From positions 1 through 36,757 of the forward strand of contig JAGPMA010000023.1 in the NCBI GenBank assembly GCA_018053145.1: DNA of 36,757 bases, read 5' to 3'. Positions 2,785 through 36,129 of the stretch are shown in pieces. A model generated the notes under the pieces. That model was not told where the DNA came from, did not search any database, and saw only the letters and a list, made by a program, of their open reading frames with translations. How positions within the stretch are numbered: position 1 is the first letter of the stretch; every line of letters starts with the position of its first letter. The position numbers and the translations under genes are program-made. The DNA comes from Oscillospiraceae bacterium. GTDB lineage: Bacteria; Bacillota; Clostridia; Oscillospirales; Oscillospiraceae.

Positions 2785-3082
2785 GTGGCCCGTGACAAGG
2801 CTGCACTAGTCGGGGAGCCAGCGGTGCCCTGTTGCCTGCAATCCGCTACAGCAGGGATGAAGTCCCACCCCAGGATAGTTGATGTGTCGTCTGACCTAAG
2901 AAAGTGGTGTTGAAGACCTGGTCTTGCGCAACGGAAGCCTGTGAACCATGTCAGGCGGGGAACCGAGCAGCATTAAGCGGGTAGATCTGTGTGCCGCAAG
3001 GTAGCCGGGTTCGAGCTAACTGCTTAGGTAACGGACATATCAATTTACTCAAAGGTGGGTGTGCAGTCTTGTCACGGGCCAC
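2785..3082 (+). ncRNA. ffs: Signal recognition particle RNA, large (Alu-domain) type
   Basis: This is the RNA scaffold of the signal recognition particle, which pairs with Ffh to target nascent membrane and secreted proteins. The ends form a perfect 15-bp helix (2785-2799 with 3068-3082). The Alu-domain block CGGGGAGCCAGCGGTGCCCTG with the following CCTGCAATCCGCTA is characteristic of clostridial SRP RNAs. The helix-8 core GTCAGGCGGGGAACCGAGCAGC, split here as GTCAGG/CGGGGAACCG/AGCAGC, is the Ffh-binding site with its GGAA-type loop. Length (about 298 bases) suits the Bacillus/Clostridium 6S-like SRP RNA rather than the short 4.5S form. Its position just before dnaX is the standard Firmicutes order. 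The exact 3' end is inferred from the helix. Confidence 0.93.
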
Positions 3083-20460: not shown

Positions 20461-20506
20461 AAAAGCTTTGCGGCACGGGTTACCCGTGCCGCAAAGCTTT
20501 TAGCTT
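20461..20506 (+). terminator. Strong terminator between convergent genes
   Basis: A perfect 19-bp stem (20461-20479 with 20483-20501) with a 3-base loop begins one base after the MBL stop codon. The stem ends in A4/T4, so it can act in both directions, also serving cca on the minus strand. Confidence 0.93.
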
Positions 20507-27763: not shown

Positions 27764-27779
27764 GCACATATTGAATGTA

Positions 27780-27836
27780 ATCAAAGGAAAGCGCTCTGAA
27801 CGAAGCTTGTTCAGAGCGCTTTCCTTTGATTAATCT
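27780..27836 (+). terminator. Terminator of mtnN-luxS
   Basis: A perfect 22-bp inverted repeat (27780-27801 with 27809-27830) with a 7-base loop follows 16 bases after the luxS stop. TAATCTTTT comes after it. Confidence 0.93.
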
Positions 27837-34161: not shown

Positions 34162-34190
34162 TTTACTTTTTACGTAATAGAACTTATAAT
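34162..34190 (+). promoter_or_regulatory. Promoter of the riboswitch-ade unit
   Basis: TTTACT (34162-34167) and a perfect TATAAT (34185-34190) are 17 bases apart. Transcription would start near 34197, about 20 bases before the aptamer. The rest of the 34020-34160 stretch shows nothing I can support. Confidence 0.65.
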
Positions 34191-34218
34191 ATGAGGCAAC
34201 AATCGTATATTCGTTATT

Positions 34219-34285
34219 GATTTATATAAGCTCATAATATGGTTGAGCGTTTCTACCAACTACCGTAAATAGTTGATTATAAATC
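34219..34285 (+). promoter_or_regulatory. Purine riboswitch aptamer, adenine-specific
   Basis: All conserved parts of the purine (xpt/add/pbuE) aptamer are present. P1 is GATTTATA (34219-34226) with TATAAATC (34278-34285), a perfect 8 bp. P2 is GCTCA (34230-34234) with TGAGC (34244-34248), with loop end ATGG. The junction GTTTCTACC lies at 34249-34257. P3 is AACTA/TAGTT (34258-34262, 34270-34274) with loop CCGTAAA, whose CC can kiss the GG of L2. The J3/1 strand is GATTA: the base equal to position 74 is T (34277), which pairs with adenine, whereas guanine aptamers have C. It lies in the leader of adenine deaminase, the expected target. Confidence 0.95.
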
Positions 34286-34331
34286 TTCATTTTTCATGTG
34301 AAGATTTATAATCAACTATTTACGGTTTTTT
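34262..34331 (+). terminator. Riboswitch expression platform: intrinsic terminator
   Basis: A perfect 28-bp stem (34262-34289 with 34299-34326) with a 9-base loop is followed by TTTTT. The left arm consists of aptamer sequence: the L3 loop, the P3 3' strand, J3/1 and the P1 3' strand. The aptamer and terminator therefore cannot coexist. Adenine binding would hold the aptamer and block termination, an ON switch like pbuE. Confidence 0.93.
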
Positions 34332-34422
34332 ATCAATTTGCAGCAAGATAAGTCCATATCCTTAAGTCGAAAAGCATAACTATAAATTACTCAAGTCAGT
34401 GTTTAAAAAAAGGGGTAACACG

Positions 34423-36129
34423 ATGCAGGAATTTAACTCGAAATTAGAAGAGAAGCGCAGAATCATTTCAATTGCAGCAGGCAATGAGCCGGCTGAGCTG
34501 GTGTTAAAAAACGCCACATATGTCAATGTGTTTTCAAATGAACTCTGCACTGACGACATTGCTGTTTTTAACGGCGTTATTGCAGGAGTGGGTAAATACA
34601 CGGGTGAAACTGAAATCGACATGACCGGAAAAATTGTTTGTCCCGGGTTTATCGACGCGCATATTCACATAGAAAGCTCTCTTGTTTCACCTAAGGAGTT
34701 TGTCAATGCCACCTTGCCACACGGTACAACGACGGTAATAACCGACCCTCATGAAATAGCAAACGTTATGGGCGAAGATGGCATCGAATACATGATGCAG
34801 GCAACCGAAAAACTGCCGATGGATGTTTTGTTCATGCTGCCGTCATGCGTTCCTGCAACGAAGCTTGACGAATCAGGAGCAATTCTTGACTATAGCGCGC
34901 TTGATTCGTTTTATAACAGTCCGCGTGTGCTTGGACTGGCAGAAATGATGGATTACGAGGGCGTTATCGCTCGTGATGAGAATGTGCTGAAGAAGCTTAC
35001 TGCTACGCAAATACACAAAATGAAAATTGACGGGCACGCACCGGGCCTTGTTGGAAACGATTTAAATGCTTACATCGCCGCAGGAGTCGGCTCCGACCAT
35101 GAATGCTCCGCAATTTTTGAGGCAATGGAAAAGCTAAGGCGAGGCCAGTATATCATGATCCGAGAGGGCACAGCTGCTCATAATCTTGAGGCGCTCGCAC
35201 CAATTTTGATGGAAAAATGCGCGGACCGCTGTGTGTTCTGCACAGATGATAAGCATCCCAATGACCTTTTGGAGAAGGGCCACATGGATTACATTATTAA
35301 AAAAGCAGTTTCTCTGGGCGCAGACCCTATTGCCGCGGTTAAGGCGGCAAGTTTCAACACTGCGCAATATTTTAATTTGAGTGACCGAGGCGCGATTGCG
35401 CCGAGCTATAAGGCTGACTTGGTTGTACTGGACAGCTTTGGAAGCTTTAAGGTTGAGCGGGTGTATAAGAGTGGAAAGCTGATGTTTGATGGTGAAATGA
35501 AGGCCTTTACAAGTCCGGAAATCGAGCGGCGCTTACTTGACCGAGCTCACAATTCTTTTAAAATATCGCGGCTTTCTCCAAACGATTTTGCCGCGAATAA
35601 GCCGCTTGGGGTGATAGGCTTGGTTGCGGGAGAAATCGTTTCTACCGACTGCGGCCTAGCCGAAGGGATAGATTTAGAAAAGGATGTTTTGAAAATTGCC
35701 CTTGTTGAGAGACATAAAAATACACACCATATTGGGGTTGGGTATATCCATGGCTACGGCCTTAAGCAGGGCGCAGTGGCAACAAGCATCTCACACGATT
35801 CCCACAACATAATTGCTGTCGGCGTGAGTGATGAAGAAATTTGTTCTGCTGTTAATGAGGTGGTTGAATGTAACGGAGGGATCGTCGTTATGAGAAGCGG
35901 TGCAGCTCTTGGCAAGCTAAGGCTTTGTGTTGCCGGACTTATGAGCGACGATACACTAGAAAATGTCAACCGAGAACTGGAGAATGCCAAAAACCGTGCC
36001 TTCGAGCTGGGCGTTTCGAGTCAGATTGATCCGTTTATGACCTTGAGCTTCATGAGTCTGCCTGTTATTCCAACGCTCAGGATAACTACCCACGGAATAT
36101 TTAATGTTACGAAGTGGGATTACGTATAA
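34423..36129 (+). CDS. ade: Adenine deaminase
   Basis: This amidohydrolase converts adenine to hypoxanthine and ammonia for purine salvage. The start at 34423 has AAAAGGGG eight bases upstream; the GTG at 34399 would include that site. The 568-residue protein begins QEFNSKLEEKRRIISIAAG and contains the metal site PGFIDAHIHIESS near residue 85, GTTTVITDPHEIANVMG, GHAPGL, VCTDDKH-type residues (FCTDDKHPNDL) and the C-terminal cap GGIVVMRSGAALGKLRLCVAGLMSD. Length is normal for bacterial Ade. It sits directly behind an adenine riboswitch, giving substrate induction. No permease or phosphoribosyltransferase is in the same unit within the window. Confidence 0.97.
   Translation: MQEFNSKLEEKRRIISIAAGNEPAELVLKNATYVNVFSNELCTDDIAVFNGVIAGVGKYTGETEIDMTGKIVCPGFIDAHIHIESSLVSPKEFVNATLPHGTTTVITDPHEIANVMGEDGIEYMMQATEKLPMDVLFMLPSCVPATKLDESGAILDYSALDSFYNSPRVLGLAEMMDYEGVIARDENVLKKLTATQIHKMKIDGHAPGLVGNDLNAYIAAGVGSDHECSAIFEAMEKLRRGQYIMIREGTAAHNLEALAPILMEKCADRCVFCTDDKHPNDLLEKGHMDYIIKKAVSLGADPIAAVKAASFNTAQYFNLSDRGAIAPSYKADLVVLDSFGSFKVERVYKSGKLMFDGEMKAFTSPEIERRLLDRAHNSFKISRLSPNDFAANKPLGVIGLVAGEIVSTDCGLAEGIDLEKDVLKIALVERHKNTHHIGVGYIHGYGLKQGAVATSISHDSHNIIAVGVSDEEICSAVNEVVECNGGIVVMRSGAALGKLRLCVAGLMSDDTLENVNRELENAKNRAFELGVSSQIDPFMTLSFMSLPVIPTLRITTHGIFNVTKWDYV

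Follow-up and report, generated by a model that had tools for sequence, protein, structure and literature searches.

Whether the leader of an adenine deaminase gene (ade) in an Oscillospiraceae bacterium constitutes an adenine-responsive switch, in which the aptamer itself serves as the antiterminator, is the question raised by this locus. The window, namely the whole 36,757-nt stretch of DNA analyzed here (contig JAGPMA010000023.1, positions 1-36,757), is described throughout by the coordinates of its plus strand. The aptamer, its specificity base, the terminator, the overlap between aptamer and terminator, and the downstream gene were established by the analysis described below, and we assigned a probability of roughly 93% to the reading that the leader controls adenine deaminase as a riboswitch of the pbuE type, turning transcription ON when it senses adenine.

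As had been proposed in the initial annotation, the sequence was searched with the Rfam covariance models. The cmscan search matched the purine riboswitch model RF00167 at 34202-34299 on the plus strand with 70.9 bits (gathering score, 37; E value, 9.6e-11), and the alignment covered model positions 1-102, i.e., the full length, with no non-standard pairs marked. The outcome that the initial annotation had named as refuting, the absence of such a hit, thus did not occur. P1, P2, L2, J2/3, P3, L3, and J3/1, which had been considered legible from the letters, were all arranged as described, and the aptamer displayed the three-way junction of P1, P2, and P3, the conserved J2/3, and the loops L2 and L3 by which a purine riboswitch is recognized. 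Its elements were as follows:

34202-34299, plus strand: aptamer including its flanks, RF00167 (cmscan, 70.9 bits)
34219-34226, plus strand: 5' strand of P1, GATTTATA, 8 of 8 pairs with 34278-34285
34227-34229, plus strand: J1/2
34230-34248, plus strand: P2-L2-P2 (P2 strands, 34230-34234 and 34244-34248)
34249-34256, plus strand: J2/3 core, GTTTCTAC, in agreement with the RF00167 consensus
34257-34275, plus strand: P3-L3-P3 (P3 strands, 34257-34262 and 34270-34275)
34263-34269, plus strand: L3, CCGTAAA
34276-34277, plus strand: J3/1
34277, plus strand: T at position 74, the specificity base of the adenine type, where the GACUA consensus has C
34278-34285, plus strand: 3' strand of P1, common to the left arm of the terminator

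The gene that follows the riboswitch was confirmed to encode adenine deaminase, since its product scored 616.2 bits against the equivalog model TIGR01178 (cutoff, 472.5); against the E. coli-type model NF007457 it remained at 462.8 bits, under the cutoff of 768. A promoter-like sequence was found in front of the aptamer; such sites numbered five in the region against a shuffle mean of 2.9, and this one was therefore weak alone and yet well placed. The features surrounding the switch were as follows:

34162-34190, plus strand: promoter-like TTTACT-17-TATAAT, 28 nt before P1 (10 of 12 consensus bases)
34410-34415, plus strand: Shine-Dalgarno-like AAGGGG, 7 nt before the ATG, read from the sequence
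34423-36129, plus strand: ade, adenine deaminase, 568 aa plus stop (TIGR01178; PF13382, PF01979)

A second and more distant Ade-like frame was observed elsewhere in the same genome, G000 (G000:C104:3203-4336), with 37% identity over query residues 201-563.

Position 74 was T34277, as the initial annotation had read it, and a U at this position is the sequence mark of the adenine-sensing subclass. From these letters we infer adenine binding and the ON direction of the response. The aptamer could alternatively recognize guanine, or be another purine variant binding 2'-deoxyguanosine or some other ligand, on the same ON platform. RF00167 gave 41 matches in 39 of 150 genomes of the family (3 below the cutoff), and when base 74 was read in all of them (by hand in L019, L024, L029, and L126 and by eye in L135) the window was the sole adenine-type member of this sample, the other 40 aptamers having C; moreover, some aptamers on the same platform precede guanine deaminase-like genes. 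This alternative was nevertheless judged very unlikely, given the T at position 74 together with the consensus J2/3, the adenine deaminase gene downstream, and the description in PMC7707468 of C74U (C89U in the numbering of that paper) as shifting a guanine aptamer to adenine/2-aminopurine.

The 3' half of the aptamer was found to be built into a terminator, composed of the following parts:

34262-34289, plus strand: left arm, consisting of L3, the 3' strand of P3, J3/1, the 3' strand of P1, and 4 further nt; exact reverse complement of 34299-34326
34286-34289, plus strand: toehold TTCA, the end of the left arm
34290-34298, plus strand: loop, TTTTTCATG, which includes a T5 run, a possible pause site by analogy to pbuE
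34299-34326, plus strand: right arm
34326-34331, plus strand: U tract, T6

The two exactly complementary 28-nt arms (34262-34289 and 34299-34326) enclose a loop of 9 nt and are followed by T6, T34326 being counted twice, as the last base of the right arm and as the first T of the U tract. The left arm starts at the last base of the P3 5' strand (34262) and takes in all of L3, and P3 by its 3' side only; it is thus drawn from the aptamer 3' half, as had been claimed. The further claim that there is no separate terminator or antiterminator also held, in that the downstream bases made no terminator without the aptamer 3' half: the best hairpin was -3.1 kcal/mol without it and -41.1 kcal/mol with it, and none of 60 shuffled aptamer 3' halves reached the observed hairpin energy. 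Since no terminator forms without that half, the aptamer and the terminator should be mutually exclusive with no separate antiterminator, and because they exclude each other, ligand binding should prevent termination. A terminator left arm taken from the aptamer 3' half, with no separate antiterminator, is the arrangement of a pbuE-type transcriptional ON switch.

No perfect hairpin in the window was longer than that formed by the 28-nt arms (loops of 3-12 searched), and chance was excluded as their source because the longest perfect arm in 20 order-1 Markov sequences of the window's length was only 13. Long stems are not unique in the window, however, since a perfect hairpin of 24 bp (27778-27832) came next in length. 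The description of the stem as unusually long and perfect accordingly stood as far as its rank in the window is concerned, and was weakened by the second perfect stem of 24 bp and by the invasion of L3 already described for pbuE. The stem is A/U-rich except for its base, CCG/CGG, which was counted against the ON-switch reading. A simple terminator scan found none at the terminator site; it probably missed this one because it counted at most 20 pairs and sought the T run too far inside the stem. A bidirectional terminator was rejected, as the minus-strand side of the hairpin carries no T run.

Other features of the window were observed besides the leader: the 24-bp hairpin mentioned above has a loop of 7 and lies between two open frames, a perfect 19-bp hairpin with a loop of 3 lies just past the end of an open frame (20461-20501), and a bacterial large SRP RNA (2801-3066, 201.4 bits) lies just before dnaX.

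As to how the switch would operate, RNA polymerase would transcribe the aptamer before the right arm of the terminator. In the absence of adenine, the short hairpin TTCA-loop-TGAA would serve as a toehold, and the right arm would displace the 3' strand of P1, J3/1, and the 3' strand of P3 into L3, giving a terminator of 28-29 bp before ade. Adenine bound at U34277 would lock P1 and the three-way junction and block the strand exchange; the terminator would not form in time, ade would be transcribed, and adenine would thereby induce its own conversion to hypoxanthine and ammonia. We infer kinetic control, pausing in the U5 loop, and the induction of ade by adenine. The folding energy of the aptamer alone was -14.3 kcal/mol and that of the terminator hairpin alone -39.7 kcal/mol, a predicted advantage of about 25 kcal/mol for the latter. 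This difference makes a switch operating at equilibrium unlikely, and the modeled energies suggest that the decision is taken kinetically, before the right arm is complete.

The same predicted excess of about 25 kcal/mol would also suit a decayed or constitutive leader, in which the perfect 28-bp terminator always wins and adenine is without effect, and the lack of a switch at the other ade loci scanned (see below) is in line with it. Such a leader is highly improbable in view of the full-length match of the aptamer to its model with no non-standard pairs marked, of the unbroken pairing over the entire 28 nt, suggestive of selection acting on the two structures alike, and of pbuE, for which PMC7707468 describes a strand exchange that proceeds during transcription through the aptamer and into L3. 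Translational control, with the aptamer mainly gating the ribosome-binding site as in Vibrio vulnificus add, where the same pair of ligand and gene is regulated in that manner (PMC8191784), is just as implausible, since the Shine-Dalgarno-like site starts at 34410, 79 nt beyond the last base of the U tract (34331), and the complement of the aptamer runs into T6, the competing hairpin ending there instead of sequestering the ribosome-binding site.

The transcriptional adenine-ON reading was then viewed against the distribution of purine aptamers. RF00167 matched the window's genome once, at the leader itself. In the order, 39 matches were obtained in 37 of 245 genomes; none of the 29 newly fetched loci had T74 (L157, L158, L166, and L178 being read by eye), and the other 10 comprised the window and G074 (L133), both read earlier, and 8 outside the base-74 reading. 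A strict adenine pattern applied to 391 genomes of the class gave three matches, the window, G536, and G483, the latter two with T74 and RF00167 scores of 85.2 and 65.7 bits. A looser pattern gave 12 matches in the 391 genomes, of which RF00167 matched only the window and G483, G536 being missed; the counts from both patterns are lower bounds, and three cases are few. All three adenine-type leaders have ade directly downstream (TIGR01178 scores of 616.2 for the window, 651.8 for G536, and 579.2 for G483; cutoff, 472.5) and carry overlapping terminators. The G536 (L123/L148) and G483 (L124/L149) leaders thus resemble the window in T74, terminator, and gene; the G483 aptamer (L124) is 86% identical to the window's over 66 nt, and at the protein level the Ade of G536 shares 41% identity with that of the window and the Ade of G483 shares 39%. 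Within the same family, the guanine-type leader L014 (G010) has an aptamer 83% identical to the window's with an identical P3-L3, and its terminator likewise pairs with L3 and P3; it differs from the window in having C74 and a guanine deaminase-like gene downstream. Judging from these sequences, the window's switch may have originated by C74U from a guanine switch, or from an adenine/ade leader elsewhere.

No purine aptamer was found with Rfam at any of 87 other ade or ade-like loci (58 + 29). The 58 were taken from 62 ade loci in named genomes, the N-terminally cut L085, L086, L089, and L092 being left out; L079 and L080 among them had no upstream DNA, and flanks of up to 3000 nt were scanned. 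The 29 were ade or ade-like loci of the family, some repeating the 58, with flanks of up to 1500 nt, and 14 of them (L109-L122) shared no more than 32-44% identity with the window's Ade. With RF00167 at 0 of 58 and 0 of 29 loci, the idea that the switch belongs to a conserved ade regulon of the window's clade was not supported. About 1.5 kb upstream of one of the family loci, L121 (G074), and just outside the scanned stretch, there is a C74 aptamer (35.6 bits, below the cutoff). At this locus (G074:C7:1241827-1245154, minus strand; L121/L133) the weak C74 aptamer, a guanine deaminase-like gene, and an Ade-like gene were observed on the same strand, an order that looks as if one operon handled both bases. 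Synteny with G003, the only genome sampled from the window's genus, yielded nothing of use: it had neither an RF00167 nor an ade match, and searches of it for the 628 bases that follow ade and for the GH18/LysM protein encoded upstream gave no match. A quick tree of 88 rows, which gave long-branch warnings including one for the window's own branch, placed the window's Ade in a clade of 71 rows (SH-aLRT, 99), and no switch was found at the scanned relatives in that clade. The Ade proteins of G536 and G483 fell outside it in the same tree, and it therefore seems that more than one ade lineage carries the adenine switch. An M-box (magnesium) riboswitch was also seen in a Dysosmobacter contig (L047, 2620-2781), where it lies close to ade and on the other strand.

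To relate terminator architecture to the downstream gene, the best hairpin at a U tract within 65 nt was compared with those obtained from shuffled aptamer 3' halves (60 shuffles in the family, 40 in the order), and a leader was scored as overlapping when at most 5% of the shuffles equaled the observed value. In the family, where the xpt, BMP, NCS2, MATE, and ABC labels and the remaining guanine deaminase and FAD labels were given by eye from sequence, overlap was found for 9 of 12 aptamers (11 genomes) before guanine deaminase-like genes (exceptions: L026, 9/60; L027, 33/60; L133, no U tract), 3 of 3 before FAD oxidoreductase-like genes, and 1 of 1 before a MATE-like gene. It was found for 1 of 12 before BMP-type lipoprotein genes (two without a U tract), 0 of 7 before xpt-like genes (one without a U tract), 0 of 3 before NCS2-like permease genes (L128, 5/60; L015, no U tract), and 0 of 1 before an ABC gene; the unassigned L011 (4/60) was not scored as overlapping. 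The ade leaders overlapped in 1 of 1 case in the family, the window, and in 2 of 2 outside it. In the order, where genes were labeled by blastp matches to the family sequences labeled by eye, the counts were 4 of 5 for guanine deaminase-like (L161, 4/40), 3 of 3 for FAD-like with L166 (C74) set aside, 3 of 8 for BMP-type (all from a single genus and with strong separate hairpins in addition), 2 of 7 for xpt-like, and 0 of 2 for NCS2-like genes; L168 was negative, and the aptamer core was not located in L157 and L158. The family thus showed a clear split by downstream gene and the order a weaker one, and the positives L019b, L132, and L171, which in addition have a separate hairpin at least as stable as -18 kcal/mol, count against such a split.

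A 17-nt complementarity test with 300 shuffles singled out the window, L123, and L020 at the 5% level (0/300 each), with L024, L026, L025, L124, L012, and L132 at 3-7%; it did not set the guanine deaminase-like leaders apart, most of these not standing out, which likewise counts against the split. Separation was better, with exceptions, when the full 3' half of the aptamer and the U tract were used.

Several of these leaders deserve description. C74 leaders of ON-like form, in place of the usual OFF form, before guanine deaminase-like genes were L007, L014, L019, L023, L025, L029, L131, and L132 in the family and L159, L165, L170, and L171 in the order. L019 (G078:C1:1471868-1471965 and 1472024-1472122) consists of tandem C74 aptamers 58 nt apart, both of which have an overlapping terminator of their own, followed by a single guanine deaminase-like gene. 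The two guanine deaminase-like proteins that were searched against NCBIfam had TIGR02967 (guanine deaminase) as their best match, with scores of 340.6 and 312.5 bits that did not reach the cutoff (375.4). Overlapping terminators also precede FAD-dependent oxidoreductase-like genes in L020, L126, L129, L160, L169, and L172; the L020 product, the one FAD protein searched against Pfam, matched PF21688 and PF07992, and our guess is that this protein is tied to purine metabolism. L024 (G013:C4:6060-6157) combines a C74 aptamer and an overlapping, L3-invading terminator with a MATE-like transporter, labeled by eye. The purine aptamers of L157 and L158 have an altered J2/3, TCTATG instead of TCTACC, and the genes downstream of them received no label from the reference sequences.

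For the window's family and the other families of its order, these patterns raise the notion, for which we consider the odds even, that the logic of purine riboswitches follows the gene and not the ligand: purine deaminase and FAD oxidoreductase-like leaders would share the ON platform, and most C74 leaders of uptake and salvage genes would be OFF-like with a separate downstream hairpin. The window thereby hints that guanine deaminase-like genes may have guanine-ON leaders as a group; if the notion is true, guanine deaminase is under guanine-ON switches in nature, with the window as their adenine counterpart. No report of a guanine riboswitch with guanine deaminase, or of a guanine ON switch, was found in the titles and abstract openings of the open-licence papers that literature searches on these subjects returned.

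The pbuE riboswitch precedes a purine efflux pump, whereas the window's leader precedes an adenine deaminase gene. Bacillus subtilis pbuE (ydhL) is, like the window's switch, adenine-type, with aptamer sequence in the terminator, invasion of L3 through P3, and a nucleating hairpin with a U run; as described in PMC7707468, its terminator must invade through P3 into L3, breaking the L2-L3 contact, and the nucleating hairpin and a hexauridine run assist switching. The two differ in that the window's stem is a perfect 28 bp, and in that the U run lies on the 3' side of the P4 helix in pbuE and, as U5, in the terminator loop in the window. Certain adenine riboswitches of ON logic are described as burying pieces of their terminator stems (PMC2258182), and a purine riboswitch model with a downstream hairpin has 19 of 21 pairs covarying according to PMC13273304. 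V. vulnificus add shares with the window the adenine aptamer before an adenine deaminase gene and the ON logic, and according to PMC8191784 it controls translation, whereas the window has a terminator before the ribosome-binding site. The pairing with a catabolic ade gene, which the initial annotation had stressed, is therefore correct as to the gene and was already known as a combination from add. The pbuE-like architecture and the ade partner are each already known, and the window joins both in one leader; it offers a natural example for strand-exchange riboswitches, in which a perfect 28-bp exchange separates kinetics from stem mismatches.
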